Shown: positions 13,492-44,101 of the stretch, in pieces
Layout: the number at the start of each line of letters is the position of its first letter
How positions within the stretch are numbered: position 1 is the first letter of the stretch
Source of the DNA: Sphingobium quisquiliarum P25
Lineage (GTDB): Bacteria; Pseudomonadota; Alphaproteobacteria; Sphingomonadales; Sphingomonadaceae
DNA: 64,000 nucleotides
Reading direction: 5' to 3'
NCBI RefSeq assembly: GCF_000445065.1
Contig: NZ_ATHO01000175.1
Span: forward strand, 1 to 64,000
Program-made: the position numbers and the translations under genes
The notes under the pieces: model-generated
What the model was told of the DNA's origin: nothing
Seen by the model: only the letters and a program-made list of their open reading frames with translations
Databases searched by the model: none

Positions 13492-14712
13492 ATGTACGAA
13501 CGGCTCGTCGAGCATCGGGTGGAGGAAGCCCTTTCAGACACCCCGGTGGTCCTGATCGTAGGACCTCGCCGGGCGGGCAAGACCACGCTTGTCCGGAAGA
13601 TGGGGGAGGAGGGCCGGAGCTATATCACGCTCGACGATCAGACGGTGCTCGACGCTGCGCAGTCCGATCCGGCCGGTTTCATTCGTGGTCTGGATCGCGC
13701 GATCATCGATGAGATTCAGCGCGCGCCCGATCTGCTGCTGGCGATCAAGAAGACAGTGGACGAGGACTATCGCCCCGGCCGCTTCCTCCTGACCGGCTCG
13801 GCCAATGTACTTACCTTGCCGCGAGTTGCCGACAGCCTGGCGGGTCGAATGGAAACCATTCGAATGCTGCCGCTGGCCCGGGCGGAAATAACAGGCCAGG
13901 CGCCGACCTTTCTGGAGCGTTTGTTCGCGGGGAAACTTCAGGGGGACCGTGGGGCGATTGTTGGCGATGACCTCATCCAACTCGCCCTGTTCGGAGGCTT
14001 TCCCGAGGCGATCAGCCGTGACAGTGAACGGCGGCGGCAGGATTGGGCGCGGTCCTATCTGACGTCGGTTCTGACCCGTGATCTCAGAGACATCGCCGAG
14101 ATCGAGAAGCTGACCGAGCTGCCGAAATTCGTTCGCCTGCTGGCGGAGCATTCGGGGCAGTTGGTCAACTACTCGCAGTTCGGCTCCAGCATCAATGTCA
14201 GCCACAAGACGGGACAGCGCTATGTGGCGCTGCTGGAGCAGGTCTTCCTCGTCTCGACATTGCAGCCTTGGTACACAAACGCGCTGAAGCGGATCGCCAA
14301 GACGCCGAAGCTGCATTTCCTCGATTCCGGCCTTCTCGCCACGGCGCGCGGGTTGACGTTCGATCGGGTGAAGGCGGACCGCGGCGTATTCGGCGCGCTT
14401 CTGGAAAGCTTCGTGTTTGCCGAAGTCCTGAAGCTCATGGATGCGTCCGACTTACGGCTTACGCCATATCATTTTCGCGATCAGCAGATGCACGAGGTGG
14501 ATATTGTGCTGGAACGCGACGACGGCATGATCGTGGGGATCGAGGTCAAGGCGTCAGCGACGGTAAAGTCCAGCGACTTTGCCGGGCTGCGGACCTTGGC
14601 CGAAGCGTGCAAGGACCGGTTCGCCTACGGCGTCGTGCTCTACGATAGCACCGATCTCGTGCCCTTCGGCGACAAATTGGCCGCAGCGCCATTGTCCGCC
14701 TTGTGGAGCTGA
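13492..14712 (+). CDS. AAA_14 / DUF4143 ATPase
   Basis: A 406-residue protein with an N-terminal P-loop ATPase (Walker A GPRRAGKTT at 24-32, Walker B AIIDEIQ near 72-78, sensor TGSANVLT near 103). The C-terminal DUF4143 region contains HEVDIVLERDDGMIVGIEVK, a D-x(n)-ExK pattern like a PD-(D/E)XK nuclease fold. These ATPases are widespread and poorly understood; many bacteria carry several. Its stop overlaps the next ATG as TGATG, so it is the first gene of a four-gene coupled operon. That suggests a role in the same putative defence system. Membership is inferred from coupling only, since AAA_14 proteins often occur alone. Confidence 0.85.
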   Translation: MYERLVEHRVEEALSDTPVVLIVGPRRAGKTTLVRKMGEEGRSYITLDDQTVLDAAQSDPAGFIRGLDRAIIDEIQRAPDLLLAIKKTVDEDYRPGRFLLTGSANVLTLPRVADSLAGRMETIRMLPLARAEITGQAPTFLERLFAGKLQGDRGAIVGDDLIQLALFGGFPEAISRDSERRRQDWARSYLTSVLTRDLRDIAEIEKLTELPKFVRLLAEHSGQLVNYSQFGSSINVSHKTGQRYVALLEQVFLVSTLQPWYTNALKRIAKTPKLHFLDSGLLATARGLTFDRVKADRGVFGALLESFVFAEVLKLMDASDLRLTPYHFRDQQMHEVDIVLERDDGMIVGIEVKASATVKSSDFAGLRTLAEACKDRFAYGVVLYDSTDLVPFGDKLAAAPLSALWS

Positions 14713-15947
14713 TGGTCATGCGACAATCGGCAAAACCATCCCGCACCAGACGCAGCCCGTCTATCGAACCTGCGTTGGGATGGACCTATCTGTCGCGGGA
14801 GGCGCTGGCGCGCGCCAAGGCGCAAATGGACGAAGAATCCATGGGCGTGCGCGATGAGATCGGCTTCCTGACGATCCATCAGCGTTATGCCGACCGCTTC
14901 TTCCCGGGTACATCGGTGCTGCACACGCGTGCCCGCTATGCGCTCTTCGTGCCTTGGCTGTTCGAGGATCTGGCAGGCCTGACGGGACCGGCCGCCGTGC
15001 GTGCTCTGCGCGAACGCGAAAGGGAGCTTGCGGGCCGGCTTAAGGACGCGGGCGAATCCCAGGTGATCGGGGGACGTGTGTTTCCCAAGCCGTCGAGCCA
15101 ACCGCCATCGACCGTGTATTGGAATGCGCTTGCGGTCTGGGGCATATTGCGTCCCCGCATTGATGGGCGGACTATTTCGCGAGCACAGGCGCATCGGCTG
15201 TTGAAGAGCGCCGGAGCGGCGACCGATGACGATGGTCATCCGCTTGTCAGTTTCGACCCGCCGTTCGTGCCACTCCTCGATCGACCGGATAATTGGCTTG
15301 GCGGCCACATCACACTTCGGATGGCGGCCGCAGAAGCGGCTTTTCTGCGCGAGCATCTCGCACAGTTGCGTCGCGATGGTAGTCATGAGCTGTCCCTGCT
15401 CGCGAGACTGGCGCGTACCGAGGCTGCGGCGCCATCGGGGATGTGGGGAGCCGAGGTTAGCGCGGTCGCCGGTCCCGATCAGGCCGCGCTTGCCAGGGCA
15501 CGGCAGGCCGCAAGTCTCGCGGGTGTAGGCCGGGCCATCTATGACGCGCTTCTGGAGCGTGTCGTCGAGACCGGCGACAAGCGGGAGATATCGACCCGAC
15601 ATCGTGACCATCTCGTCGCGATCATCGAAGAGCACGGTTCCATCGCGGCCAAGCTCGATGTCGATGCGCTTGAGACGGACATTGGCGCGCTGCCGTCGAG
15701 GTTGCGTGCTGTTCTGACGGCCACGAAGGACTGGATAGCATCCAGATCGGGAAATCCCGCCCCGCTCTTCGACGTCTACGCCGCGGCTGAAGCCCGCAAG
15801 GGGCCGCGCGCACGGCTTGCTTTGACTGTTAATGGACGAGATCGGCGCCTCGAATGGTCGAGCGATGAACATGGCCTCGCTGGGCCGCTCCACTATAGAT
15901 GGGGGCAAGTCAGTACGCTCCTCGAAGATCTGGCGGACCCCGAATGA
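14712..15947 (+). CDS. DUF6361 family protein
   Basis: A 411-residue protein with the conserved start region GWTYLSREALARAKAQMDEE, then DEIGFLTIHQRYADRFFPGT and RARYALFVPWLFEDLAG, which I associate with DUF6361. No catalytic motif can be named. The middle is rich in Arg and Glu and mainly helical. I chose the ATG at 14712 (TGATG with the previous stop) over a GTG at 14703. Its own stop overlaps the next ATG as ATGA. Adjacency to a PLD-like nuclease and a large helicase points to a multi-gene DNA-targeting defence system in which this protein could be a structural or recognition subunit. This is inference from context. Confidence 0.75.
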   Translation: MVMRQSAKPSRTRRSPSIEPALGWTYLSREALARAKAQMDEESMGVRDEIGFLTIHQRYADRFFPGTSVLHTRARYALFVPWLFEDLAGLTGPAAVRALRERERELAGRLKDAGESQVIGGRVFPKPSSQPPSTVYWNALAVWGILRPRIDGRTISRAQAHRLLKSAGAATDDDGHPLVSFDPPFVPLLDRPDNWLGGHITLRMAAAEAAFLREHLAQLRRDGSHELSLLARLARTEAAAPSGMWGAEVSAVAGPDQAALARARQAASLAGVGRAIYDALLERVVETGDKREISTRHRDHLVAIIEEHGSIAAKLDVDALETDIGALPSRLRAVLTATKDWIASRSGNPAPLFDVYAAAEARKGPRARLALTVNGRDRRLEWSSDEHGLAGPLHYRWGQVSTLLEDLADPE

Positions 15948-17797
15948 GCGAGGTGGTCGAAAGCTGGCCGGCGCTCTCGTTCCTGGAGGGGTTGCGTCCC
16001 GGCCCCGATGAAAGCGTCGAGCTCGCCTTGCTGGCGTCCTATTCGGCGGATCTGGGATCGATCGGCGCCACTTTGCTCGCGCTGGCGGGCAAGGACACCG
16101 ACGCTGGCCGTGGCACTCCGTCCGATTTCGCCGATGCGGTCGAGAGGTTGCGCGGGAAAGTGCGCATTGTGATCCAGCGCGGCCGTCTCGCAAGAATGCG
16201 GCGTACCCCGCGCATCGCTGCCGTGCTGGATCAGTTCGTTCGCGAAGTCGATTTCGATGAGGCAACACATAGCTGGCACCCCAAGGCCGCTCTGGTGCGA
16301 ACGTGCGGCGCGGACGGCGAGATCGGCTGGCGGCTTTGGGTCGGCAGCCGGAACCTGACCGAATGCGTAAATCGCGACATTGGGCTGCTGCTTGTTTCTG
16401 GTGGCAAAGGTGGTGCTCGGATCCCTGGTGCGGAAGATCTGGCGCGCGGACTGGCCGAGAAGGCCGAGCTGAAAGGCGCGCGTTCCGCTTCCCTTGCGGC
16501 GACGATTGCGAAGGTGGCCTGGCGGGCGCCAGCAGGCGTGCGCGTTGAGCGGATTCGCTGGTCGGCCGGGACGGGAGATCAGGTCGTTCCTGTCCCGCCA
16601 CCGGGGACGGACGAGGTTGTCGTGGTGAGCCCCTTTGTCGACAAGAACTTTCTTGCCAGACAGACACCGAAGGGAACGAAACCGTCACGAAGCGTACTGC
16701 TGACGACAATGCGGGAGATCGAACGGGTCGGTCCGTCACTGGCGGTATTCGACGATTTGCTCGCACTCGATGCGCCCGACTATCCCATTGGCGATCCCGA
16801 ACCTGCGTCACAGCTCGCGGCGCTGCCGGTTGATGCCGGCGCGGCCGATGATGAGGAGGAGGAAGTCGGCCGCGGCCTTCATGCCAAGCTGTTGTTCATG
16901 CGTTCTGGGCGCAAGCGGGCACTATGGCTCGGAAGCGCGAACGCGACGCTGCGCGCCTGGACCGGACGCAACGCCGAGGTGACGGCTGAGTTGGAGGTTT
17001 CCGAGTCCGTCGAGAAAGGTCTGAAGGCGCTTCTCGGGTCAGCGCGTCCTGTCGAAGCACCCGGTGTGGAGCATTCGCCCGATGCGGCGACGCTGGAAGA
17101 GGAGGCGCTCGAACGGGCGCACGCCCAAGTGGCGGCGCGCTGGGCGGCAGAACTCAGCATCGACAACGAAGGGATGCGCCTCACTCATCGTTCCGATCTC
17201 CATCCTGGCGGTCCGCATCCCGATGACGCCGACATCCTGCTGGAAGTCGGCGCGCTTCATGGCGAGCTTGTGGCCTGGCCGGCGCAGCAACCCGACATGC
17301 TTCTGGGGCCTGTCACTCCCGCCGAACGAAGTGAGTTCGTGCGCTTGCGGGTCAGCCGTGGAGACAAGGGGCTTTCGTGGCTGCAACGCGCACCGGCCGA
17401 GCCACCTTTTGGGGAGGAACGCGACCGCGCCGCATTTGTGCGTTTCCTCGGAGCCAGAGGATTTCTTCTCTGGGTGGCCGGGTTGCTTGCCGAAGACGAC
17501 CGGCAGGGCGAGGGTGACTGGACGCATGACGAGCCGCAGGAACGCGCCGGTTTGGTAGCGAACCCGGTGCTGGACGCATCGCTGCCCACCTTGGAAGAGA
17601 TGTTGGCGGCATGGGCGCGCGACCCAGACAAGTTCCGCGAGATCGAGCGACGGGTCTCTCAATATCTGCCCGCCGTGCTTGAGCAGGCCGGACAGGAAGA
17701 CCCGCAAACCGCGGAGATGCTCAGACGCTTTGACGCATTATGGGGCAAGGTTCGAAGCGGGCTTGGCGCCGCCGAGATCAAGGGTAGACGCCGATGA
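15944..17797 (+). CDS. Phospholipase-D-like (HKD-type) protein
   Basis: A 617-residue protein with two PLD-like half-sites. The first is WHPKAALVR at about 111-119, followed by WVGSRNLTEC. The second is LHAKLLFMR near 312-320, followed by WLGSANATLRAW. Both keep His, Lys and the GSxN element, but an Arg replaces the Asp of the canonical HxKxxxxD. PLD-fold nucleases with this reduced motif exist (BfiI-type), and PLD proteins are core parts of DISARM (DrmC). The protein probably cuts or binds DNA together with the coupled helicase. The ATG at 15944 is preferred because it overlaps the DUF6361 stop. There is no signal peptide, so it is cytoplasmic. Confidence 0.8.
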   Translation: MSEVVESWPALSFLEGLRPGPDESVELALLASYSADLGSIGATLLALAGKDTDAGRGTPSDFADAVERLRGKVRIVIQRGRLARMRRTPRIAAVLDQFVREVDFDEATHSWHPKAALVRTCGADGEIGWRLWVGSRNLTECVNRDIGLLLVSGGKGGARIPGAEDLARGLAEKAELKGARSASLAATIAKVAWRAPAGVRVERIRWSAGTGDQVVPVPPPGTDEVVVVSPFVDKNFLARQTPKGTKPSRSVLLTTMREIERVGPSLAVFDDLLALDAPDYPIGDPEPASQLAALPVDAGAADDEEEEVGRGLHAKLLFMRSGRKRALWLGSANATLRAWTGRNAEVTAELEVSESVEKGLKALLGSARPVEAPGVEHSPDAATLEEEALERAHAQVAARWAAELSIDNEGMRLTHRSDLHPGGPHPDDADILLEVGALHGELVAWPAQQPDMLLGPVTPAERSEFVRLRVSRGDKGLSWLQRAPAEPPFGEERDRAAFVRFLGARGFLLWVAGLLAEDDRQGEGDWTHDEPQERAGLVANPVLDASLPTLEEMLAAWARDPDKFREIERRVSQYLPAVLEQAGQEDPQTAEMLRRFDALWGKVRSGLGAAEIKGRRR

Positions 17798-20700
17798 GCA
17801 CGCCCAAGCCATTCCAGGAAGCTGCTGTCAATGCGGCGCTCGCGGCCTTCGAGGATCTGACGGGGCGCCGTCGTTTTCTGGTGGCCGATGAAGTCGGCCT
17901 TGGAAAGACGGTCGTGGCGAAGGAACTGGCTCGCCGCATGTCCGAGGACGGCCGCCGGCCTTTGGTGATCTACTACATCGCCAATGGGCACGCGGTCTCG
18001 CATCAGAACAAGGGCCGGGTCGTTGGCTTCCTGAGCGATTCACAACGCAAGGCCGCAATTGCAACTCCGGATCGACTTTCGCTGATTGCGATCGCGAAGC
18101 AGCCGGACAATCCCGTCCTCATCTACGCCTTGACCCCCGCGACGTCATTTCCGGGAGCGCGCGCGCGTCTCACGGGAGGACGCAAGGAAGAGCGGGCGTT
18201 CCTCAAGGTGTTGCTTGAGCAGACCTATCCTGCATTCGCCCGCGATCTTGACCCGGACATATTGCGGCTCAGCGCGCGAGGTTCGTGGGACTGGGCTGTT
18301 AAGGATGCGGAGAACAAGTTCGCGACTTCGCCTCCCCATCTTCGCCAACGGTTTCGCGAAGCTCTGGCGGCCGAATTCGGTGAACCGGTACGCGCGATGC
18401 TCGATCTGGCGGTCCAGGGCGATGCGAAGAGAAAGGTCAATCCGCTCAAACCGACCACCTTTGTTGGTCGCCTCCGACGTGCCCTGGCGCTGGCGACACT
18501 GCGTCATCAGCCACCTGATCTTGTCGTTCTCGACGAGTTTCAGCGTTACCGGCAAATTCTCGACGAGAAGGACGCCGATCCGCTTCTGCAAGCGCTTCTG
18601 GAACCTGAAGGCTCGCTTGTTCCGCCTGCGATCCTGCTGCTCAGTGCGACGCCGTATCGGCTCCTGAGCACAAGATGGGAGGAGGCGCGCGGTGCGCTCG
18701 CCCATGCGGAGCTTCTGGACCTGATCGAGTTCCTGGCAGGCCTCGATGTTCGAGAGCGCGCCAAGACGCTGTTTGCCGATTTCGGCGACAAGTTGCGTGA
18801 CATCGCGGCGCATTCCGATGTGAATCATCCAGAGTTGGAGCGCGAGGTTGCTGAGGCGGCCAGGCTGAGGGATGAGCTTCGCGGACTGCTGACGCCCGTG
18901 ATGTCGCGGACGGAACGGGATAGTGTGGCGTCGGCCGACCCGCTCGCCGCAACGCAATTCCTTGATGCCGACCCATCGCCCGAGGATTTTCAGGTCTACC
19001 GGCATCTCGTGGAGAGTTTTGCCGAGCCGATGCGCTATGAGGCGTTGCCATATTGGTCCTCGGTTCCGTTGCCGGCTCAGGCGCTTGGCCCTCGCTATGC
19101 GGCCTGGAAGCGTGCCAAGATCAAGGCGGCGCCGAAGCTCACGCGGATGACGCGCGATCGCCGTAATAAACTCGATGCGCCAACCGCATGGCCCGACGCG
19201 AAGCTCCGCGCGCTCAGCGATGTTGCCCCGCCGAAGCTGCTGTCGCTCCCCTGGGTTGCCCCGTCGCTTCCCTGGTGGCCACTCGGCGGAGGTTGGAAGA
19301 GCACGGCGGCTGATCCCAAGCTGCTGATGTTCAGCCGCTTTCGAGCGACTCCGCCCAGCGTGGCTGCGCTTCTGAGCTTTGGTGTGGAAGCGCACTGCCT
19401 CCCCAAGAAACAAGGCGGCTATGAGAAGGCTTATAGGCGGCGGCGCTTCAAGTTGGCGGCCGTTCCCGGCCCCGTGATGGCGGCGTTCCATCCATCGCCA
19501 TGGTTGATCCGCAACACAGACCCGCTTGCGAAAGCTGGCGCGGCGCTCGGCGTCGTTCGCAAGGAGGTCCGGCGGCAGATCCTCGCCGCCTTGCCCAGGG
19601 GCATCATTGAGCGCGATACCGCGAAGGCCAGACGCCGGCACAGATCGATTGCGATGACGCTGGCGGCGATCGAACGGATGGCCGGTGTCGCCGAGCTGTC
19701 CGCCGCAGGCTGGCGCAGCGCGATCGGTGACGATCGTGCCGCGCAGTCGGCTGTTCAAAAGTGGCGCCAGGCGCAGCCGATCGACCGGCTCTCTCCCATC
19801 GAGCTTTCGGATCTCGTGGACTATGCGATTGGGGCGCCAGGCATCGCGCTCGGCCGGGCGTTGCTGCGGCATGACCCGACGATCCTTGACCCAACACGCT
19901 ATCCGGAGCTGGTTCAACTCAGTTGGCAGGGACTGCGCGCCTATCTCGACAATCCGGTGATCCTGTCATCGTTGGCGGGGAAAAGCGCGGTCGAGCAAGT
20001 CATGGGCGCGGTGGTGGACGGCGGCTTCGAGAGTGTTCTCGATGAGCATTGCTGGCTGCGCGCCCAAAATCTCCATGAAGGCGCTGCTGGCCTCGCCAAG
20101 GATCTGCAATCGTCGCTCGGCCTACGCGCCGGCAGCTTCAGCTTTCATGGCATTGGCGGGCCACCGCACAAGATCCCGGTGCGCTGTCACGTCGCGGTGC
20201 CGTTCGGTGACGCTGAGACCGAGCCCGTCGTCAAGGTGGAGGGCGGCGTGGCGCAAGCTGCTCCAGCCCGACCCGATGAAGTTCGCCGGAGTTTCAACAC
20301 GCCATTCTGGCCGCACGTTCTGGCGACGACGTCCGTGGGGCAGGAGGGGCTGGATTTTCACCCCTGGTGTTCGCATGTGGTTCATTGGGACCTCTCGTCC
20401 AACCCGCTTGATCTCGAGCAACGTGAAGGGCGCATACAGCGTTATGCGGGCTTGGCGGTCAGACGGCGGCTCGCAGCAACATTGCGTGACGAGGTGTTGA
20501 GAGATTCCACGCTGGCCGACGGTTCACCCTGGCGGTGTTTGCAGGGCCATGCGGAGAGGTCAGTCGATGCAAGCGGCCTTCGTCCCTGGTGGGTGCTTGA
20601 TGGCGCCGAAATCAGCCGCCATGTTTTCGAGCGCCCCTTTGGACGGGATGTCGTGCGTTTCGCCCAGCTTCGAGAGCAGCGCATGATCTATCGCCTGGCT

Positions 20701-20976
20701 CTCGGGCAGCCCAATCAGGAGGATTTCATCGACGTGTTGTCGCGGGGCGGCGAGGCGACCCGCGAGCTGCTGCAACCGCTCGTCCTCGATCTTTCCGCGA
20801 TGGGTCTTCGTCAGATAAAGGCGGCACAGGCAGCACCGGCGAACGGCCACGGGCTGACATCGACCATTGACGCACCAAATTTGAACGGGGGGGACGTGTT
20901 CGCGGCAGAGACCGAGGCGATGGCGATTGACCCCAGGCCATCCGAGCCGATCCTTCCGATCGCTGATCCGGGATGA
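17794..20976 (+). CDS. Large superfamily 2 helicase of the DUF6361/PLD operon
   Basis: A 1060-residue SF2 (SNF2/DEAD-like) helicase. Motif I is ADEVGLGKTV at 31-40, motif II is the variant DEFQ at 247-250, motif III is SATPYR near 285, and the C-terminal lobe has TTSVGQEGLDFHP and the arginine-finger motif EGRIQRY near 877. The first residues (STPKPFQEAAVNAALAAFED) form the Q-motif region. Between motif III and the second lobe lies a large family-specific insertion. It is coupled to the PLD gene (ATGA) and ends the operon. The ATP-driven translocase would move the nuclease or scan DNA. It resembles helicases of DISARM-like systems in general design, but no DUF1998 partner or methylase is present. 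Confidence 0.85.
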   Translation: MSTPKPFQEAAVNAALAAFEDLTGRRRFLVADEVGLGKTVVAKELARRMSEDGRRPLVIYYIANGHAVSHQNKGRVVGFLSDSQRKAAIATPDRLSLIAIAKQPDNPVLIYALTPATSFPGARARLTGGRKEERAFLKVLLEQTYPAFARDLDPDILRLSARGSWDWAVKDAENKFATSPPHLRQRFREALAAEFGEPVRAMLDLAVQGDAKRKVNPLKPTTFVGRLRRALALATLRHQPPDLVVLDEFQRYRQILDEKDADPLLQALLEPEGSLVPPAILLLSATPYRLLSTRWEEARGALAHAELLDLIEFLAGLDVRERAKTLFADFGDKLRDIAAHSDVNHPELEREVAEAARLRDELRGLLTPVMSRTERDSVASADPLAATQFLDADPSPEDFQVYRHLVESFAEPMRYEALPYWSSVPLPAQALGPRYAAWKRAKIKAAPKLTRMTRDRRNKLDAPTAWPDAKLRALSDVAPPKLLSLPWVAPSLPWWPLGGGWKSTAADPKLLMFSRFRATPPSVAALLSFGVEAHCLPKKQGGYEKAYRRRRFKLAAVPGPVMAAFHPSPWLIRNTDPLAKAGAALGVVRKEVRRQILAALPRGIIERDTAKARRRHRSIAMTLAAIERMAGVAELSAAGWRSAIGDDRAAQSAVQKWRQAQPIDRLSPIELSDLVDYAIGAPGIALGRALLRHDPTILDPTRYPELVQLSWQGLRAYLDNPVILSSLAGKSAVEQVMGAVVDGGFESVLDEHCWLRAQNLHEGAAGLAKDLQSSLGLRAGSFSFHGIGGPPHKIPVRCHVAVPFGDAETEPVVKVEGGVAQAAPARPDEVRRSFNTPFWPHVLATTSVGQEGLDFHPWCSHVVHWDLSSNPLDLEQREGRIQRYAGLAVRRRLAATLRDEVLRDSTLADGSPWRCLQGHAERSVDASGLRPWWVLDGAEISRHVFERPFGRDVVRFAQLREQRMIYRLALGQPNQEDFIDVLSRGGEATRELLQPLVLDLSAMGLRQIKAAQAAPANGHGLTSTIDAPNLNGGDVFAAETEAMAIDPRPSEPILPIADPG

Positions 20977-21043: not shown

Positions 21044-24000
21044 TCACGCGCTGCCGATGATCCTCAGCTTCATCGCGCGTGTCTCCATCAAATAGGTCTC
21101 GACCCCGGCCAAGAGGTGCAGACCTTCTTCGGTAATGGCTGCGCGCGAGAGGCCCGGCTGCACGATCCTGACATCGAACTCATAGCGATAGTCCTGCCAG
21201 CTTGCCTTCAGCTTCTTGAGAAAAGCTGCTGTTCCTTGCTCGAAGCGTGAACTCTGACCTTTGTCGAGACGCAGCTTTTCCCGCTTCAGCATGTGTGTGA
21301 ACATGCGATGGGGACGATCGCGCCATCGAGCGGATTTCTGTGCCTGGCCGCAGGCCTCGTAGAGATCCTTCACGCGCGCTCCCGGTGTGTCCGCGCTGGA
21401 ATACTTGCAGTGATGCAGAGTCACCTGCACCAGGCCTTCCGTCACGCGAAGGGTGACCACGTCGGCGATTTCGCCGGCGCCGTCGTCATCGAAGACAAGG
21501 TCATAGGCTTCATCATCGGCGAGCAACGCGTCGATCACCCGTCGTTGTACCGAGTCTGCGCGCTTTTCAGGTCCCTGCGCCTCAGCCCTGATATTTGTCC
21601 GGGACCAGTCCCAGACTTCGATCTGGTCCGAGGGGTAGGGGGCGAAGGCAACACCATCTGGCAAGGCGTAGAGATGGCTGTAGATCAGCAGTGATCCGTC
21701 CCCGAAATCGATCTGCGGGGAATCCTCGCCGAAGGATTCCGATAGAGTTTTCACTTTGCCGCCAACCTTGATGGTCGTTTTCGGTCCCGATCGTTGGGGA
21801 TAGCGAGCACCGCCTTCGGCGAACACAATCTCGAACTCAGCAACATCCACATCGCTCCGTACCGAGAAGCGCAGCGGTCCGGTGCGTTCATGATCGAGCA
21901 GTTCGATGTCGCATTCGGCGAATGGCATAGCCCGGTCGCCGAAGCTGATCTCTACGCGGTCCTCTATCTGTGTGAGCAGCGACTCCGGCCAATGGATGGC
22001 GACGGGCGGCACGGTCGGCCGGTCGCTGATCTGGCGGGGCCGCATAGCACTCTTGAACACGCCATCGGTGGTGATTCCCGGATCATTCACAGCCTTGCCG
22101 ATATCGGCACACCATTCGACCCAGTCGGTGAGATCGCGAACTGGAGAGATCGACCAGAATTTGCCTTTGGCCGAACAGCCGCGCGATGCGGGCACGCCAT
22201 CGAGGAAGCCGGTCGCAAAGACGTTATTTTTTATGCGGGACTGCGACTTGGCGGTATCGAGGCCGTCGGCGACATCGACGCCCATGTACATGGAGTAGCG
22301 AACGCCGCGGCCCTGATGATGGGTCAGGCCAAGGTTGCGCAAGATGAGGCGGTTGAACCCGTGCAAGCTGCGGAAGACTTCCTCGCCTTCGACGCGGCGT
22401 GTCGTGTCGCTACATATGGCTTTGGCGAGCCGATCGTAGGGGCCTTTGGCCGAACTGCTGATATAGAGAAGCTGTCGGTCCGGATCCCAGTGCATCATGT
22501 GCAGATCCCAGATGACATTGGTCGCATGTTGCGCGGTGGTCCAGCCAGCCTGTTCCTCGGATCGGGTGACGAAGATGGCAACGCGTTGGTGCGGGTTGAC
22601 CTTCATGCCGAGATAGACGCCGGGATTGTATAGGTCCTCGGCCCGGAGCGGTTCCCAGGCGTCGCACGACGTTCGATAAACCACGGCGTTCATCTTCGGT
22701 TCGAGCGTTTGAAGAGGGATGTCGCTGAGGTCGCCGACGAAGCCTTTGAACATTTCGGCGCGCCGAACCTGCCGGTCGATCTTTGCGGTACTGAGCGCCT
22801 CGACCAGCGCGTTCCAATCGGCGTCCTCCGCATAGAGCTTGGCAAGCGATCGGTCGATGTCGTCCACGCCAGTATTGGCGATGACCGTGGCATCACCCAG
22901 ACGCGGATCCTGCCGGGTGAAGCGGCCGACGAACTGGATGGTGACGGCGATGCTCTTGTGCGGATCATGCAGGCCCGCGATCTTCAGTTCCGGGAGATCG
23001 AAACCTTCGCCCAGCATATCGACGCAGATAATGACCCGACTTTCGAAGCGCCTCAGCGCGGCGAGGTTCGCGCGACGCTCGCGGATAGACTGCTGGCTGT
23101 GAACGATGACCGGCCGGAATTCCGGGAACATCGCGCTGTAGAGTTGGTGGAGGTCCTTGGCGCGGTCGATCGTCTGGCACCGTGCCATGGCAAGGTGATT
23201 CAGGCCCGCGTCCAGATCGCCCTGCAGAATCTCGCCGAGCTTCTCGGCAATGGCCAGGTCAGCATCGGCCTGGTCGAGCCCGAACACAGCCTCGAAACGG
23301 ATCGGTTTGAAATAGCCTTCGGTCTGCGCCTTTTTGAGCGGATATGTGTAGATGAACTCGCCATCGACTCGCCGGCCGTCCTCACGGAAGGGGGTGGCTG
23401 TAAACTGGACGATGGGCAGCGGCGGTTCCCGATCAATAAAGAGGCCGCGAAAACGAGCCCAGGTCGGGGCGCCGATATGATGCGCCTCGTCGATGAAGAG
23501 CGCCGAGGCGCGCGCTGCCATCTGCTCCTGAACGGGCGCGTCCGCACGCCCGGCGATCTGCATCGTGGTGACGACGACATTGGCGCTGTCGAAGATTTCA
23601 TCGACCTCCGCCGGGCTCGTCGGAATATGGGACAGCCGCATGACAAGCGGAAAGGCTGCTGCGTCGGCGAGACATTGCTGTTGCCTGAGAACACCGAAGG
23701 TCTCGAACTTGCCGGCGATCTGCTCGCGCAAGGCGTCGGTCGGCACCACAACCAGCAGCCGCTCGAAGTTCTGGTGGGCGTTGAGCGCGAGCATGGTCTC
23801 GGTCTTGCCCGTGCCGGTCGGCATGACCACGGTTGCCGGATCGGTTGACCGGGTTGCGTGGGCCAGTGCGGCGTGAAGCGCGCCGATCTGAGGACGCCGC
23901 AAACCCGGCCGCGCCGGCTCGCCGGTCTCCGCGGCACGTCCTTCGCGTAAATAGACCGCATCCGTCCAGGAGGCGGAGACGGCAGCCAGCCGATCGGCAC

Positions 24001-24385
24001 GCGCGGCACGATCCAGCGTGGCGATATTGGTCGGCAGCGAGTTGATCCAACGGCCTTCGCCCATTTCGAGCGTTTCGGCGATCCGCACCGCCTCCGTCGC
24101 GCCGGGCACCAGGAGAATGAGATCGGCGTCCAACGGCGTTGCCGTTTTCGCACTGATAATCTTCAGCGTCTCGCCCGATTTGAGGGTGGCCTCATGGCCA
24201 GTGACGCGGCGGATCGCGAAAGGGCGCAGTTTGCAGCGCACGCGCTGCGCCGGAACCGCCAACTGACGGACGGGGCTCGCCAGCACCTTGCCGTCTATGG
24301 CGAGGCGAGGGGGCAGCAGCAGCTCAACTTCGGGATTGAAGAGATCGTCCTGGCTGGAACTGGCGGTGCGCTTGCGGCTGGCCAT
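21044..24385 (-). CDS. DEAD/DEAH helicase with nuclease-like C-terminus
   Basis: A 1113-residue SF2 helicase in the style of type III restriction subunits. Walker A MPTGTGKTETM lies near 187-197, the DEAH box FIDEAHHIG near 298, QFTATPFRED near 330, and motif VI QFVGRFTRQDP near 478. After a long middle region, residues about 960-1000 contain LVFDDDGAGEIADVVTLR and LHHCKYS, a D-x(n)-(H)CK arrangement that could be a divergent PD-(D/E)XK nuclease. It is the third and last large gene of the minus-strand operon, 14 bases after the UvrD-like gene. It is convergent with the helicase ending at 20976. A DNA-degrading complex with the AddA/AddB-like neighbours is inferred. Confidence 0.85.
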   Translation of the reverse strand: MASRKRTASSSQDDLFNPEVELLLPPRLAIDGKVLASPVRQLAVPAQRVRCKLRPFAIRRVTGHEATLKSGETLKIISAKTATPLDADLILLVPGATEAVRIAETLEMGEGRWINSLPTNIATLDRAARADRLAAVSASWTDAVYLREGRAAETGEPARPGLRRPQIGALHAALAHATRSTDPATVVMPTGTGKTETMLALNAHQNFERLLVVVPTDALREQIAGKFETFGVLRQQQCLADAAAFPLVMRLSHIPTSPAEVDEIFDSANVVVTTMQIAGRADAPVQEQMAARASALFIDEAHHIGAPTWARFRGLFIDREPPLPIVQFTATPFREDGRRVDGEFIYTYPLKKAQTEGYFKPIRFEAVFGLDQADADLAIAEKLGEILQGDLDAGLNHLAMARCQTIDRAKDLHQLYSAMFPEFRPVIVHSQQSIRERRANLAALRRFESRVIICVDMLGEGFDLPELKIAGLHDPHKSIAVTIQFVGRFTRQDPRLGDATVIANTGVDDIDRSLAKLYAEDADWNALVEALSTAKIDRQVRRAEMFKGFVGDLSDIPLQTLEPKMNAVVYRTSCDAWEPLRAEDLYNPGVYLGMKVNPHQRVAIFVTRSEEQAGWTTAQHATNVIWDLHMMHWDPDRQLLYISSSAKGPYDRLAKAICSDTTRRVEGEEVFRSLHGFNRLILRNLGLTHHQGRGVRYSMYMGVDVADGLDTAKSQSRIKNNVFATGFLDGVPASRGCSAKGKFWSISPVRDLTDWVEWCADIGKAVNDPGITTDGVFKSAMRPRQISDRPTVPPVAIHWPESLLTQIEDRVEISFGDRAMPFAECDIELLDHERTGPLRFSVRSDVDVAEFEIVFAEGGARYPQRSGPKTTIKVGGKVKTLSESFGEDSPQIDFGDGSLLIYSHLYALPDGVAFAPYPSDQIEVWDWSRTNIRAEAQGPEKRADSVQRRVIDALLADDEAYDLVFDDDGAGEIADVVTLRVTEGLVQVTLHHCKYSSADTPGARVKDLYEACGQAQKSARWRDRPHRMFTHMLKREKLRLDKGQSSRFEQGTAAFLKKLKASWQDYRYEFDVRIVQPGLSRAAITEEGLHLLAGVETYLMETRAMKLRIIGSA

Positions 24386-24399
24386 CGCGGCGTCCTCTT

Positions 24400-27300
24400 T
24401 CAGACCGCCATCGTTTGCGGCGAGGGCGCGACGATGATAACCGTCGCGCTTGTCATCAGGACGATCAGGCCCTGTTCGCCGCCGGTCATGTCGAGATAGG
24501 CGCGCACCTGCGCCCGATAGTGATCGAGCGTTCGCGGATCTGGGCTCACGTCGCTCTTCCAGTCGATGACCACGACCGGCCGGCCGTCGGGGTTGACCGT
24601 CAGCGCATCGGCGATGCCCGCCGTCGCGACAAGTTCGGTGTCTTCGCCGCGAAGAGCGTAGACCGGAAATTCGGCGAGCAGCGCGGGCCGCAGGGCCGCG
24701 ATCTCCGGTAGCGCCAGCGTCCGCGTGACGCAGCCTGCCAGTTCCTCCGGGGCGAGCCCTGCCGCCGGATTGGCGACGGGAACCTTGCCGAGCGCCCGGA
24801 TGAGTTCCTCGGCGCGCCTCGCGAGTGCCGCAGAGGCGTCATCGGTCTCGCCGGTCAGTACCTCTTCCATGAGCTTGTGCAAGACGAGCCCGCGCTCACG
24901 TCCACCTTGGACGGCCAAGGGCACCCCCAATTCGCTCGGAGTGTCGTCGTCCGACCCTGCCCAGATGTTGGCTTCCTCTTCCTGCAATACCGTGCCGGTC
25001 GCATTCTCGTCGCGGCTCGGGGCGAGCCAGGTCAGTCGCACCTGCCTGTCGGCGATTGCGCCGGCCTCCGCGGCAAAACCCTCGCGGGTCTGATTATTGA
25101 TGGCGCTGCCGGCTGTGACAATCGCATCGAGCGGCAAGCGCGATACATCAAAAGCCGGAAGTTCGGCCAGCGTCAGGTCAACAAGGCCAATCCAGGCGGA
25201 CTTGGAGGGCGTCACATCGAGCCGTGGTAGAAGCAGCAATTCCCGGGCGCGTGTTGCTGCGACATACCAGAGGCGCACGCGTTCGCGATCCAGTTCATCC
25301 TTTTCGGCCTGGCGCGCAACGTCGTAGCCAGACGGCGCGGCGCCGAGAACGGGGCAATAGAAGGTGTCGGTCTGGCGATCGATCACCGCGCTGTCGGGCG
25401 CCATCACACCGGTCATGGTGTTGATGGGAATGACCACCGGCCATTCGAGGCCCTTGGCGGCGTGCATCGTGAAGAGCGCGACGGCTTCCTCCTGAGCGTC
25501 GGGCCGACCTTCGACCGCGCGAGCTTCATCGGTCCAAGCCGCTGTCATCGCCTCGGAGAAGGCCCGCATGCCACGCACCGCGTAGCTGGTCGAGAGGCTG
25601 AGATAGAGATCGACATTGGCGAGCGCGCGTTCGGCCTGGCCGCGATGCCGATCGAGCAGAATGGGACGCAACCGCAGGACATCCACGGCTTGCGAAAGCA
25701 GTTCATGCGGTGTCGTACTGTTTCCGCGCCGATAGAGCGCTTGCAGCTTTTCGACCACATCGCGCGCGAGCGGATGGACGATCGCCGTCGGGTCGACGCC
25801 GAGATCGAGGCGGGGGATCCGGTCGGGCTTGTCCTCGGTGCGCGGAAGCGCCCAGACGATGTCCAGCAGTTCCTCTTCGCTGAGCCCGACCAGCGGGCCG
25901 CGCAGCAGTGCGCCGAGCGCCAGGGTGTCACGGCGATCGGCCAGCACACGGGTCAGCGCAATGAGGTCCTGAACCTCCTGTCGGCGAAACAGGCCCTTGC
26001 CGGCCTGCGTCGCCACCGGAATGCCGCGCCGCTCGAGGGCTTCCTCATAGCGCCACAGATCCGCGCCGGTCGGCGCAAGGAGAGCAATGTCGCCCGGCTG
26101 GCAGGGGCGTTCGGTGCCGGCTTTGCGATCCAGAACCGGATGGCTGCCGATCAACCGGGCGCACAGGTCGGCCACGGCATCGGCTTCAGCGTCGCGTTGC
26201 CGCTCGGCGCTGGCCTTGCCATCTTCATCGGCGACGGCAATGTCGATCGCGGCGACGCAGATGCCTTCGCCGCGATCGTCATGGAAGGGATCAAGCGACG
26301 TAAAGCCGGGTTGGCCATCCGCCGACAGGATCGCCTCAAAACGCTCGTTGACGAAGGTGAGGATCGAGGCGCAGGAGCGGAAATTGGTCGAGATCGACAC
26401 GAGGCCGTCCGCATCCTGCACCGTGAAGGCGGTGCGGGCCTGAACATAGGCACCGACGTCGGCGCCGCGGAATCGATACACGGCTTGTTTGGGATCGCCC
26501 ACGAGGAAGAGTGCGCCCGGCCGAATCCGGAAGCCGGTCCAATCCTGCGGATCGTCCCCGGGTTCGCCGCACAAGCGCCAGAAGATTTCCGCCTGGAGCG
26601 GGTCGGTGTCCTGAAACTCATCGACGAGGACCTTCGCGAACCGCTGGCCAAGCGCCTGCCGCACCGCCTCATGATCGCGCAACAGATCGCGGGCGGCATA
26701 GATGAGGTCGTCGAAGTCAAGCTGGGCACTGGCGCGCTTGTGTTCGTGATAACGCTCCAGGATCGGCCTGGCTTCGTCGATCAGCGCCGCGAGAACCTGA
26801 CCGGAAACTGCCTGGAGAAGGGCGTCCCAGGCCGAGCAGCACGCTTCGAAATGGGCTTGAGCGGCATCGTTCAGTCGATCGCCGTCCGCCTTGGACAGAC
26901 CCGCCTGCTTGGCCGCGGCGGCCCATTTGCCCTTCTTTCGATAGGAGGAAAAGGTTCCGGCCTTGGTGCAGAGATCAGGATGGGGGCGCGAGACGAGCAG
27001 TCCGACCAGGCCTGCAGGCGCGGCAGCGTCTGCGGCGGTCGGCAGCATCGTTGCCATTTCGGAGAACCGTGCCGCGTAGACTTCCGTTTCCGGTTCACTT
27101 GCGGTGGTTGCCTGCATGAAAGCGGAGAAGTCGTCGGCCGTCTGCCGAAATGCCAGAAGATGGCCGGCGAGCGGTGTCACCGCTGGCGCCACGAGGCTCC
27201 TGCGACGGCGCAAAGCCTCGGCGATCTTGTGCATCAGTGCCACGGTCTCGCCGGGGCTGTGCAGCACCATCTCAGCCAGGATTCCACCTTGGCCGCCTGA

Positions 27301-27798
27301 CAGGCGCTCGCGCAGCCAGCCATCGGCGATTTCGAGAAAGGCGAGATCGGCCTGGTTGCGGTCCATGACCGCCGCGCCCGGATCGATATCGGCCTCGGCG
27401 GGATAGGGCTTGATTAGGCGCTGACAGAAACCATGGATGGTCGAGCAGGTGATCTCGTCGATGGCGGCGGTCGCTGCGATCAGATTATCGCGCTGCCCTT
27501 GTGACAGACCATCGGGTAGCCCGACCGCAAGCTCGGGTGCGATGTGACCTGCAGCGAGGTCGGCGACGAAATCTCGGACGCGGGCGAGGAGCTCGCTCGC
27601 AGCCAGTTCGGTGAAGGTGACAGCGGCGATTGCGCGTGGTGCAACGCCCTGCGCCAGCATGAGGGCAATCCGCCCAGCCATAACCGCGGTCTTGCCCGAC
27701 CCCGCACCTGCCTCGACGAGGATGGAACGATGGTGATGGCTGATCGCGTCACGCCGAGCGCCATCGTCCTTAAGAGTCTTCGACATCATGTTCATCAT
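24400..27798 (-). CDS. AddA/UvrD-like helicase-nuclease
   Basis: A 1132-residue SF1 helicase with Walker A EAGAGSGKTAV near 29-39, VTFTELAASELLAR (motif Ia), VLVDEFQDTDP near 396 (motif II) and VGDPKQAVYRFRG (motif III). The C-terminal RecB-type nuclease domain has GIADALTV then VVIDWKSDV near 1078 and AQVRAYLDM (QxxxY-like). This is the AddA architecture at a normal AddA length. Its start overlaps the stop of the AddB-like gene, the usual addB-addA arrangement. Lying on a mobile island and next to a DEAH helicase, it is more likely a defence nuclease or an element recombinase than the host's repair AddA, which would normally be elsewhere on the chromosome. Confidence 0.85.
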   Translation of the reverse strand: MMNMMSKTLKDDGARRDAISHHHRSILVEAGAGSGKTAVMAGRIALMLAQGVAPRAIAAVTFTELAASELLARVRDFVADLAAGHIAPELAVGLPDGLSQGQRDNLIAATAAIDEITCSTIHGFCQRLIKPYPAEADIDPGAAVMDRNQADLAFLEIADGWLRERLSGGQGGILAEMVLHSPGETVALMHKIAEALRRRRSLVAPAVTPLAGHLLAFRQTADDFSAFMQATTASEPETEVYAARFSEMATMLPTAADAAAPAGLVGLLVSRPHPDLCTKAGTFSSYRKKGKWAAAAKQAGLSKADGDRLNDAAQAHFEACCSAWDALLQAVSGQVLAALIDEARPILERYHEHKRASAQLDFDDLIYAARDLLRDHEAVRQALGQRFAKVLVDEFQDTDPLQAEIFWRLCGEPGDDPQDWTGFRIRPGALFLVGDPKQAVYRFRGADVGAYVQARTAFTVQDADGLVSISTNFRSCASILTFVNERFEAILSADGQPGFTSLDPFHDDRGEGICVAAIDIAVADEDGKASAERQRDAEADAVADLCARLIGSHPVLDRKAGTERPCQPGDIALLAPTGADLWRYEEALERRGIPVATQAGKGLFRRQEVQDLIALTRVLADRRDTLALGALLRGPLVGLSEEELLDIVWALPRTEDKPDRIPRLDLGVDPTAIVHPLARDVVEKLQALYRRGNSTTPHELLSQAVDVLRLRPILLDRHRGQAERALANVDLYLSLSTSYAVRGMRAFSEAMTAAWTDEARAVEGRPDAQEEAVALFTMHAAKGLEWPVVIPINTMTGVMAPDSAVIDRQTDTFYCPVLGAAPSGYDVARQAEKDELDRERVRLWYVAATRARELLLLPRLDVTPSKSAWIGLVDLTLAELPAFDVSRLPLDAIVTAGSAINNQTREGFAAEAGAIADRQVRLTWLAPSRDENATGTVLQEEEANIWAGSDDDTPSELGVPLAVQGGRERGLVLHKLMEEVLTGETDDASAALARRAEELIRALGKVPVANPAAGLAPEELAGCVTRTLALPEIAALRPALLAEFPVYALRGEDTELVATAGIADALTVNPDGRPVVVIDWKSDVSPDPRTLDHYRAQVRAYLDMTGGEQGLIVLMTSATVIIVAPSPQTMAV

Positions 27799-30449
27799 TC
27801 CGCCTCCCAGACCTGAGCGACATCGCCGAGCCGCTCAGTTGCGGCGGTTTGTTTACGTTTGCAGTAGGTGGCGCCGGCATTGGCCGGCAGCGCAAAAGCG
27901 AGATCGTCATAGTCACCGCCTGTATCCGGACCCGGCAGTGCCGCGCCGCTCGACAACGCAATCCGTGCGGCCTGCAGATAGCCGGTGATTTCCGCCAGCA
28001 CTGCCGCCGGATCGTCGAGTTGAAGGTCCAGCGGTTCGCGCGGGTAGAGCAGGGAGGCGCTGATCGCGACATGGTCGCCCAGGAGCGCCTTGACCGCGAA
28101 GGCGTAGAGACAGCGCTGAAGCTCGCGCCCTCCGTTCAGGCGGATATCGCTCTTTGGGGGCTTCCCGGTTTTATAGTCGCGCACCAGTGCGCGGCTGCCG
28201 TCGCCGGCGATGTCGAGCCGGTCGATGTAGCCAGCGATCTGGAGGTCTGTGCCCGGGATAGTTACGGGCAGGCTCGCATCCCAGGGGAGTTCCGCCTGCG
28301 ATTTGGGTTCGGACCCGCCGAAGGGCACTTCGCCATAGGAACGGCTGCCGGGCAAATGGTCGTCGCCGTAGGCGAGAGCTTGGCTGGAGAGAAGACGTGC
28401 ATCGCCAATCGTCCGGCCCCAGATAACTTTGGGCGGGACTGGTCGTTCGCTTTCCCATTCGGCAGCTACCGCGTCCGCAGCTTCGGCCACGGCAGCGTCA
28501 ATCGCGGACGCATCGGCGGAAGCCAGCCCTCCGGCCGCTTCGAGATTCCGCAAGGCGCGATCGAGCACCAGATGGATGAGATCGCCTGCCGCAAGCGCGT
28601 CGAGCACGAGGGGTTCGGCGCTGCTTTGCGGGGATTTCCAGCCGAAGGCATAGCGCCAGAGGAAGCCGAGCGGGCTGCGAAGCAACGTCTTTAGCGAGCT
28701 GGCCGACTGGGCTCGCGCAAGAATCGCGAGAATGAGCGGATGGTCAGGCCGGACGAGGCCGTCATGCGGTGTGACCTCGGCCTGGCGCCAGTCGCTCCAG
28801 CAAGCACGTGCGCTGATAGCCTGGGGATCGCTGGCGAACTCCTGCGGCCGGGCCATAAGCCGATCGGTCTCGCTGAAGGCATGGGTGGGGATCGCGTTGC
28901 GGCGCAAATAGGTTTCGTCGCCAAGGCCGGCGAGCAAGGGGCTCCGGCCCAGCAGCCGTCCGTCGTTGTCGCGCCGGGCGCGTGACAGGACCACCCCGCC
29001 GGAGGTTGTCGCGAGGATCGCTTCGAAATCGCGGCGGTCGGCCAGGCTCACGGGAAGCGGGTCGAGTTCGCCGGTCGGGACAATATGGTCTGGGATCAGC
29101 CGGTCCTCGGTGATTCCGCGTGGCCAGCGCGAGGAGTTGAGACCGACCAGCCGGACGAAACGACGAGGCGAGGCCGCAAGCGCGCTGGCCGGCATCCAGG
29201 CGACCGACACGCAGGCTTCCAGCCCGTCATCCTGTTTCAGCGTTTCGAGCGTGACATCGATTGAGGCGGCTGGTCCGGCGAGCAGCGCCTTGCGCCAGAT
29301 CGACAAGGCTCGTCCCTTGAGAAAGGCTTCCCCGATGTCCTGCGCGGCATCAGGCCCCTTCGCCAGAAGGTCGACCGCCGTGCGCAGTGCTGGGGCATGG
29401 TCCATGCCATCGGGCCAGTCGTCCGGTTTGAGGCGTGTCAGCAGGCGGCTCCAGGCCGTAGAGGTGGACAACGGCGCATCGCTCGGGAGGACACGCAACC
29501 ACCCGTCGGGAAGCGAGGCCAAGGGCGCCGACTCCCGGCACAAAGCCGAAAGGCGGCGCAGGCGCGATTGCGAGAGGCCGCGCACGACGATATCGGCAAG
29601 TGCTGCTGCGGCCTGTCCTTCGCGGGTCGTGGCGGTCCGGACGCCGTGAACGAAATGCAGGTCGATATTGGCGTCGGCGCGCAACGCCAGGAAATGGTCA
29701 TCATAATCGGCGGGCGACGCCGTGGCGATCGCGACGTCGGAAGGTGAGACGCCTGATGCAAGCAATGCGCGCGCCCAGCGCATCGCCTCAATGGCTTCGT
29801 GATAGGCGGTCGCGGCGCTGACGGAACCAACCGTCGGCCCTTCGGCCTTCGTCTGCACGACAACGACGCCGCTGTCGTGGAGCCAGTCTGGGACGAAACG
29901 GGGGCCTGCCGTCCATTGCACCGGAATGCGTGCGGCGAGTTCCTTCACCAGAGGGCGCCAGCACGGAGACAGTTCAGTCAGCCCGGCGATTTCCATGGTG
30001 CCGAGAACGGCTGGCGCGTGGGCGATACGGTTGCTGGCTGCGGCGACAATATCGACCGGACGCATCATCCCGTCGGGAAGTTGGGTGAGAACGGCCGCTT
30101 CCAAGCGAGCGATAGCGTCGAGACGGGGATGATATGTCGACCGGGCGGCCAAATCGATGCCCGAGCGCCAAGCCTTATGCAGCGTGTCCGCGGCCGCGCC
30201 AATCATGCCCGGCAGCATCTTGATGCCTTCCAGTTCCCCCATCGGCGTGGCGGGAAGCACGGCCTGGATCGCCGCGCGCAGGCTTTCCTCATCGATCGGC
30301 CGGACGAACCCGCCCGCGAGCCGCACGGCGGCTTGCTCGAAAGACATGATCTGGAGCCCATGGCGGCCGCTGCGCGCGGCCGCGAGGCGGGCCTCCCGCA
30401 TCGCGAGGCGACCATGGACGATAAGAGTGGATCGACTCGCGGCTGTCAT
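27795..30449 (-). CDS. AddB-like PD-(D/E)XK nuclease
   Basis: An 884-residue protein with a degenerate UvrD-like N-terminal half (STLIVHGRLAMREARLAA) and a C-terminal RecB-like nuclease (GYIDRLD, then VRDYKTGKPP near 760, then LQRCLYAFAVKAL). It is shorter than typical AddB (about 1000 or more). The C-terminal tail has one Cys (ATYCKRKQ), so the four-cysteine iron-sulfur staple known from Bacillus AddB is not evident. I chose the ATG at 30449 over 30455 because the GGGGG ribosome site lies seven bases upstream of 30449 but almost touches 30455. It is paired with the AddA-like gene by a 4-base overlap. Confidence 0.82.
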   Translation of the reverse strand: MTAASRSTLIVHGRLAMREARLAAARSGRHGLQIMSFEQAAVRLAGGFVRPIDEESLRAAIQAVLPATPMGELEGIKMLPGMIGAAADTLHKAWRSGIDLAARSTYHPRLDAIARLEAAVLTQLPDGMMRPVDIVAAASNRIAHAPAVLGTMEIAGLTELSPCWRPLVKELAARIPVQWTAGPRFVPDWLHDSGVVVVQTKAEGPTVGSVSAATAYHEAIEAMRWARALLASGVSPSDVAIATASPADYDDHFLALRADANIDLHFVHGVRTATTREGQAAAALADIVVRGLSQSRLRRLSALCRESAPLASLPDGWLRVLPSDAPLSTSTAWSRLLTRLKPDDWPDGMDHAPALRTAVDLLAKGPDAAQDIGEAFLKGRALSIWRKALLAGPAASIDVTLETLKQDDGLEACVSVAWMPASALAASPRRFVRLVGLNSSRWPRGITEDRLIPDHIVPTGELDPLPVSLADRRDFEAILATTSGGVVLSRARRDNDGRLLGRSPLLAGLGDETYLRRNAIPTHAFSETDRLMARPQEFASDPQAISARACWSDWRQAEVTPHDGLVRPDHPLILAILARAQSASSLKTLLRSPLGFLWRYAFGWKSPQSSAEPLVLDALAAGDLIHLVLDRALRNLEAAGGLASADASAIDAAVAEAADAVAAEWESERPVPPKVIWGRTIGDARLLSSQALAYGDDHLPGSRSYGEVPFGGSEPKSQAELPWDASLPVTIPGTDLQIAGYIDRLDIAGDGSRALVRDYKTGKPPKSDIRLNGGRELQRCLYAFAVKALLGDHVAISASLLYPREPLDLQLDDPAAVLAEITGYLQAARIALSSGAALPGPDTGGDYDDLAFALPANAGATYCKRKQTAATERLGDVAQVWEAE

Positions 30450-30470
30450 CGCCATTCCCCCTTTTCCGGA

Positions 30471-31666: not shown

Positions 31667-32286
31667 TGCCGGATTCGAGGGATCAGCCCTACCTTATGTC
31701 CTTCGGAACCGGGGGGCTGTACATCAATGAAAGTGTTGCCGTTGCCGGATTGCACGATGTCGTCGGAGACTGGGATGCGACGCTCGGTGCCGCGCTGGAG
31801 CGCGGCGTGTTTCCGGTGCGAAAAGCGAGCTCAGCGCGGCGTTCCGTTCGGGAAATCGTGAACCGCCTGAGATGTCTGACGCCGGCAGAGTTGACTTTAC
31901 TGATTGAAGGGGAGCGCAACGAGCAATGCGCTCTCCTCTGGCTGGCCACCTGTCGGGCCTACAGGTTCATCCGCGAATTTGCGATCGAAGTGCTCAGCGA
32001 CAGATTTCTGACCTTGAAGACAGAACTCACCTACGATGATTTCGACACGTTCCTGTCGGCGAAGGAGGAGTGGTCCCCTAGGCTTGCGACACTATCGGCC
32101 TCGACCCGTGCCAAGCTTCGCGCGGTGCTATTTCGCCTGATGCGCGAGTCAGAGATTCTATCGCAGGATGACCGAATACTTGGGGCGATGTTGTCGCCGC
32201 GCGTGTTGGCAATAATTCAGGCCGAAAACCCCAATGAATTGCGTTACTTCCCTGGTGCCGAACGGCAGAGGGGAGGGAGGAGATAG
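31666..32286 (+). CDS. brxA: BREX protein BrxA (DUF1819)
   Basis: A 206-residue DUF1819 protein, the first core gene of type 1 BREX. The N-terminus (YLMSFGTGGLYINESVAVAG) and the helical middle (CALLWLATCRAYRFIREFAI) fit BrxA, a small DNA-binding, winged-helix-like protein. I used the ATG at 31666 (TGATG with the brxR stop); a GTG at 31663 is also in frame. It is required for full defence in some BREX loci. It acts in the cytoplasm with BrxB, BrxC, PglX and PglZ. Confidence 0.85.
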   Translation: MPDSRDQPYLMSFGTGGLYINESVAVAGLHDVVGDWDATLGAALERGVFPVRKASSARRSVREIVNRLRCLTPAELTLLIEGERNEQCALLWLATCRAYRFIREFAIEVLSDRFLTLKTELTYDDFDTFLSAKEEWSPRLATLSASTRAKLRAVLFRLMRESEILSQDDRILGAMLSPRVLAIIQAENPNELRYFPGAERQRGGRR

Positions 32287-32897: not shown

Positions 32898-32904
32898 GGG
32901 GGCC

Positions 32905-41586: not shown

Positions 41587-41588
41587 GC

Positions 41589-44090: not shown

Positions 44091-44101
44091 TGGGGGAAGC
44101 G

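Follow-up and report, generated by a model that had tools for sequence, protein, structure and literature searches.

Assignment of a Sphingobium quisquiliarum P25 operon to the Azaca defence system, with an optional DUF4143 gene and AddAB-like neighbours

The DISARM defence system joins a PLD-like protein to an SNF2-like helicase, DrmB (DUF1998) and a methylase, while Azaca is defined by three genes, zacA, zacB and zacC, in the order A-B-C. In the parts of the published sources that were available, Azaca (ZacC) appears among the DefenseFinder systems with a helicase (PMC12278908), a PLD-like domain is attributed to it with Millman et al. 2022 cited (PMC10952713), and its mechanism is given as unknown in the table of a 2026 review (PMC12926258). 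The first of these sources also describes Hachiman, in which HamB is the sensor helicase and HamA the effector nuclease (PMC12278908). The present analysis deals with a four-gene operon at positions 13492-20976 of a 64,000-nucleotide stretch from Sphingobium quisquiliarum P25 (contig NZ_ATHO01000175.1), the whole of which is called the window below. The overall explanation judged best, and held with good confidence, combines an Azaca identity for genes two to four, an optional DUF4143 gene in front of them, a proposed mechanism and an AddAB-like companion.

Gene content and family assignment

The four genes lie head to tail on the + strand, with the coordinates and junction bases given in the initial annotation: TGATG at 14710-14714, ATGA at 15944-15947 and ATGA at 17794-17797. 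Its family calls also held when the products were compared with the PADLOC 2.0.0, Pfam and NCBIfam profile libraries. The first gene (13492..14712, +; 406 amino acids, aa) encodes an ATPase with Pfam DUF4143 (1.9e-44) and AAA_14 (2.8e-25) and matches the PADLOC candidate PDC-S01 at 1.2e-169. Its stop shares one base with the start ATG, at 14712, of the DUF6361 gene (14712..15947, +; open frame from 14703), the product of which matches the PADLOC ZacA profile over positions 3-392 of 396 (1.4e-89) and Pfam DUF6361 at 1.2e-14. The third gene (15944..17797, +) encodes a PLD-superfamily protein with the two HxK motifs that had been noticed at the outset; it covers positions 6-582 of 586 of PADLOC ZacB (4e-119), and its PLDc_2 score in Pfam, 21.3 bits, falls below the cut-off of 27. 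The fourth (17794..20976, +; 1060 aa) encodes an SNF2-like superfamily 2 (SF2) helicase or translocase in which Helicase_C and ResIII exceed the Pfam cut-offs and residues 1-1003 match positions 10-1017 of 1019 of PADLOC ZacC (9e-271).

From these PADLOC matches and the use of the Azaca name for ZacC in PMC12278908, in so far as that source was available, it follows that genes two to four are almost certainly, on sequence grounds, a diverged clade of the named anti-phage system Azaca. An unnamed system, as which the set had originally been taken, is thereby ruled out. The PADLOC run that had been proposed as a check for an already named system found one for three of the four genes, the DUF4143 gene corresponding to the candidate PDC-S01, and with the operon settled as Azaca there is no reason to pursue it as a new system. 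A 723 aa open reading frame on the opposite strand (14640-16811, -), which overlaps zacA and zacB, is probably a by-product of base composition.

Relatives were sought in two genome samples and in a scan of genome contigs. ZacA matches were present in 14 genomes of the order sample (396 in all) and in 7 of the phylum sample (398), with G000 and G039 in both, and a full ZacA was found in 16 genomes once the partial matches in G219, G755 and G702 had been left out. The contig scan gave at least 568 loci, the best 80 of which were kept, and in these the genes followed the order A-B-C on one strand wherever they were found together. All three passed the length rule in 59 of the 80, L094 included. 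The overlap between A and B measures four bases in 57 of 70 pairs and that between B and C in 50 of 59; since they recur in this way, the four-base overlaps are beyond chance. A co-translated defence operon within an island that includes BREX, as first proposed, is upheld.

Several loci are damaged (L037, L082, L085 and L094); L094 has a single open frame that takes in part of ZacB and part of ZacC, and L037 a ZacA without its end, the frame of which continues into unrelated sequence. The L021 contig, titled as a Hyphomicrobiales MAG (metagenome-assembled genome), shares 94.6% identity with 21 kb of the window (4733-25947), despite the sphingomonad look of the window's genome, which suggests a recent transfer or misbinning. 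In G308, from the same family as the window's genome, locus L120 has its ZacA in common with L072 of Sphingomonas aracearum.

Two other readings of the operon were weighed. It could be a DISARM variant that lacks DrmB and the methylase, since a PLD protein stands beside an SNF2-like helicase and ZacC matches DrmD over 59 helicase-motif residues (1.1e-11). That match, however, reaches 51 bits where NCBIfam requires 610 for DrmD, while ZacA, ZacB and ZacC each have a nearly full-length family match of their own. Among the four genes PADLOC gave no DrmB match and DrmA only as a 44-residue motif match, ZacB had no DrmC match at E<=0.01 (PADLOC), and the absence of DISARM's DUF1998 and methylase genes, already pointed out in the initial annotation, was borne out, with no DUF1998 in the four genes (Pfam) and no methylase in 13492-20976 (PADLOC, Pfam). 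The PglX downstream belongs to BREX. A DISARM identity of the operon is excluded, with DrmA/DrmB, a methylase and full-length DrmC and DrmD all wanting, and a pared-down variant is scarcely credible.

The other reading takes all four genes as one system that needs the DUF4143 ATPase, for instance as a sensor or regulator. In its favour are the single base that this gene shares with zacA here and the intact upstream copies in L021, L029, L030, L093 and L137, the gene being intact in 4 of the 80 loci and, in addition, in L137. Against it, the gene was undetected in 72 of the 80, among them L063 and L090 with too little upstream DNA to judge, and in 4 more it is reduced to a C-terminal stub of 74-103 aa (L024 and L025 are near-copies). 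The coupling that had been described is therefore real for all four genes here, but that of the first gene is not conserved. The similarity of DNA to the window begins at 14760-14766 in L022, L027 and L031, and L022, with a ZacA 95% identical, has the window's DNA from 14760 on without the DUF4143 gene; at the other end, similarity stops near 20814 in loci with otherwise different neighbours. The rare intact copies, the stubs and the similarity starting inside zacA show that the DUF4143 gene is a separable, lineage-specific accessory, outside the conserved core, which can decay while Azaca persists. In L093 the reverse of the decay elsewhere is seen, with an intact DUF4143 gene beside a damaged ZacA. 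The reading with a required ATPase is thus largely refuted and very improbable.

The AddAB-like companion and its neighbours

Behind zacC, and convergent with it, lies a module of three genes on the - strand. The AddB-like PD-(D/E)XK protein (27795..30455, -; PDDEXK_1 5.3e-18 in Pfam) is encoded with a four-base overlap with the gene for an AddA-like UvrD helicase carrying a C-terminal PD-(D/E)XK domain (24400..27798, -; UvrD-helicase 4.1e-53 and PDDEXK_1 2.7e-5), and the third gene specifies a RadD-like SF2 helicase (21044..24385, -; ResIII/Helicase_C, ResIII 4.6e-19) that reaches 6.9e-14, or 51 of 720 bits, with NCBIfam RadD and adjoins AddAB on plasmids too. The AddA-like protein, at 272.9 bits, lies below the cut-off of 860.75 for alphaproteobacterial AddA in NCBIfam and so does not qualify as the housekeeping enzyme, and since an AddA above that cut-off is encoded on contig C9 of the same genome, the pair in the window is a second, accessory copy. 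In PADLOC the AddB-like protein had no match at E<=0.01 and the AddA-like protein partial helicase matches only. The recurrent accessory AddAB-like companion, for which PADLOC 2.0.0 holds no full-length family, is possibly the sole new element of the locus.

The association was followed through the relatives. In the order sample, AddB-like genes occurred in 9 genomes and ZacA in 14, and the 4 genomes with both always had them in one gene cluster (Fisher p 1.1e-4; 1.4e-3 without the window's own genome). Among the 16 genomes with a full ZacA, AddAB-like genes stand beside Azaca in 8 (G000, G178, G164, G282, G284, G308, G694 and G577), a count that includes the window and a G577 region ending inside AddA, and all 8 belong to the window's class. 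No AddAB-like genes were found beside Azaca in 6 (G076, G039, G167, G105, G208 and G545), and the contigs of the remaining two, G265 and G376, were too short to judge. In G076 a fusion of a superfamily 1 (SF1) helicase with RNase_H_2 is encoded directly upstream of ZacABC (L128:11102-14488, -).

The arrangement takes many forms. A convergent module downstream, as in the window, recurs in L021, L022, L029 and L137, and divergent AddAB-like and Azaca genes in the L072 group and L120. The order AddB-AddA-ZacABC on one strand was seen in L119, the L143 group, L156 and L161, the order AddB-AddA-RadD-ZacABC on one strand in the L044 group, and an SF1 gene between AddA and ZacABC in L118. Diverged pairs adjoin Azaca in L129 and L130 (AddA about 26% identical), and L136 has another. 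A protein of 893-905 aa with UvrD-type domains is encoded behind AddA in L118 (7216-9894, -), with Azaca behind it, and in L122 (16079-18754, +), beside BREX; the L118 copy, when scanned, had no PADLOC match at 1e-10.

A survey of PDDEXK_1 gave 147 hits in 49 genomes, of which 45 fell in the coordinate range, most of them coincidences on other contigs; after checking, by agreement of frame lengths in 11 loci and by tblastn for L021 and L029, which are cut by the locus end, 13 of the 49 genomes, many of one clade, were left with a hit within the Azaca locus, where the analysts' own arithmetic gives some 0.6 expected for ~20 kb of each genome. On a tree of 76 ZacA rows the state of adjacency changes at least 9 times, and 6 of these changes are forced by well supported branches. 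The tree is a quick one with several long branches on which gains and losses are not told apart, and its AddAB plasmid rows were chosen for carrying AddB, so that the number of changes counts and not the fraction; scored as 'none' were L030 and L081, despite RadD-like DNA, and the damaged L093, despite AddAB beside it.

The same pair was found in other company. Plasmid records with an AddB-like protein numbered 60 at E<=1e-60 and 21 at >=60% identity, and 19 of the 21 were read, with H58 and H66 left out. Several of the 19 are close kin. In 10 of them AddA is followed at once by Azaca, in 5 AddB is directly preceded by Shango, and in 2 a WYL gene separates the pair from BREX; the other 2 have none of the three. 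The Shango records (L145, L148, L154, L155 and L163, all Rhodobacterales) have SngABC followed directly by AddB-AddA, with a RadD-like helicase behind in 4 of the 5; the PADLOC names were obtained for L145, to which the other four are 96-100% identical. Where a genome has AddB without ZacA, the pair adjoins BREX (L122), Hma and SIR2-HerA (L125) or a type III enzyme (L123), and in L121 and L124 none of the 20 query proteins recognised a neighbour, PADLOC not having been applied to these. A multiubiquitin-ThiF-DUF6527 set and a second UvrD helicase stand directly upstream of AddB-AddA-ZacABC on rhizobial and Shinella plasmids (L143, L146, L151, L157 and L162).

A RadD-like helicase as an Azaca gene was rejected: it occurs in 8 of the 396 genomes (E<=1e-40), and ZacA in just one of these 8, that of the window, so it has no exclusive tie to Azaca. 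Beyond the module, and divergent from AddB, a WYL regulator (30743..31666, +; PADLOC WYL 1.1e-14) separates it from BREX, and a WYL gene beside AddB-AddA recurs in other loci. Type I BREX is defined by the genes brxA, brxB, brxC, pglX, pglZ and brxL. In the window all six products were matched in PADLOC (31663..46177, +), so that the BREX system reported nearby in the initial annotation is confirmed as a complete type I. The PADLOC candidate pair HEC-02A/HEC-02B is inserted in this operon between BrxC and PglX (36435-38107, +).

Proposed mechanism and rival readings

The motifs of ZacB and ZacC are conserved. A pattern search found both HxK motifs in 73 of 83 ZacB sequences; those it missed, a distant clade and two others, have both on alignment, with LSRN or SSRN replacing GSRN. 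The core residues of the helicase motifs of ZacC are invariant in 39 sequences. In Foldseek the predicted ZacB model ranked Tdp1 first and had the PLD restriction enzymes SauUSI, BfiI and NgoAVII among its matches, while in VIA-align Tdp1 tied with bacterial PLDs, PLD3/PLD4 and vaccinia F13; owing to that tie a Tdp1-like enzyme was dropped, and ZacB is claimed as a member of the PLD superfamily only. ZacA is all-helical in its predicted model (pLDDT, the predicted local distance difference test, 88.8), and no usable structural relative came from Foldseek against the PDB, VIA-align, a viral library or a sequence search of the PDB, which is no proof of a new fold.

It is tentatively suggested that Azaca is a DNA-targeting translocase combined with a PLD nuclease and an all-helical adaptor or sensor, every biochemical step of this being inferred. 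ZacC, as an SNF2-like ATPase, would load onto double-stranded DNA and travel along it, ZacB, a two-lobed PLD phosphodiesterase, would cut or end-process the DNA that ZacC reaches, and ZacA may hold the two together and license them on phage DNA. As the core operon has no methylase, self is probably told from non-self by the state of the DNA (ends, replication forks or damage) and not by a modification mark. The AddAB-like pair would probably degrade DNA opened by Azaca, or by Shango or BREX. By analogy with Hachiman, ZacC would be the sensor and motor, ZacB the effector and ZacA the coupler, with AddAB consuming the opened DNA.

Several observations weigh against this account. In L143, L153 and L162 ZacC is followed, some 30 bases on, by a DNA methyltransferase gene in the same orientation. 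The AddAB-like pair is not specific to Azaca, and general clustering in defence islands is a live rival, in which the pair and Azaca are mere co-passengers with no functional link. This is a serious contender, if one rated somewhat below even: the pair also keeps company with Shango, BREX, Hma, SIR2-HerA and a type III enzyme, it occurs without Azaca in 5 of the 9 AddB genomes of the order sample, its order in the window is convergent, and the adjacency counts cover this pair alone with no control family counted alongside. It is harder to reconcile with the repeated placing of AddA immediately before ZacA, co-directional and about 0-200 bases away, in several constructions that include an AddA of ~26% identity, or with the many changes of state on the ZacA tree. 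Other observations bear on what ZacB attacks. Lipid enzymes of the PLD fold reach scores as high with ZacB as those of DNA enzymes, and no self-protecting methylase is found among the four genes, as would suit abortive infection, in which ZacA and ZacC sense infection and ZacB then attacks the host's own DNA or its membrane lipid, killing the cell before phages are released. The SNF2-like translocase and the repeated AddAB adjacency nevertheless indicate a DNA substrate, as do the PLD restriction enzymes among the Foldseek matches of ZacB, and abortive infection is considered unlikely.

With a confidence that approaches, yet does not reach, an even chance, the accessory, often plasmid-borne AddAB-like pair may be a shared DNA-degrading partner of several named alphaproteobacterial defence systems, functional in AddB-AddA-ZacABC and SngABC-AddB-AddA, such that Azaca would have an extended form of five or six genes. 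If so, the window carries the pair together with its partners, Azaca on one side and BREX on the other. RecBCD-type enzymes have a known role in the destruction of phage DNA, to which an AddAB companion would be the counterpart, and if an AddAB-type exonuclease is indeed exchangeable among Azaca, Shango and BREX, these systems would be expected to produce or mark DNA ends.

Comparison with described systems

The window resembles DISARM in having a PLD-like protein (DrmC in the available part of PMC12458937) and an SNF2-like helicase within one defence operon, and differs in that the operon is without DrmB (DUF1998) and without a methylase of its own. Hachiman (HamAB) is likened by description, as a nuclease and a helicase without a methylase. 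HamA is not known to be a PLD enzyme. Shango (SngABC) resembles the window in its company: the same AddAB-like genes come immediately after SngC on five plasmids of Rhodobacterales. None of the 16 window proteins submitted to PADLOC gave a Sng match. The companion shares with AddAB/RecBCD a UvrD helicase with a C-terminal PD-(D/E)XK domain and an AddB-like PD-(D/E)XK partner, but its AddA-like protein scores far below the AddA cut-off and the relatives of the pair are plasmid-borne beside defence systems. The match to Azaca is the closest, as the three window proteins follow the Zac profiles nearly from end to end in the order A-B-C and ZacB is PLD-like, as is stated for Azaca in the available part of PMC10952713. 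The window differs from other Azaca loci in its ZacA, which shares only 24-27% identity with 9 of the other 13 sequences in alignment A1, all 9 of which outscore it on the PADLOC ZacA profile, and in its surroundings, with the optional DUF4143 gene in front and the AddAB-like/RadD-like module convergent downstream.

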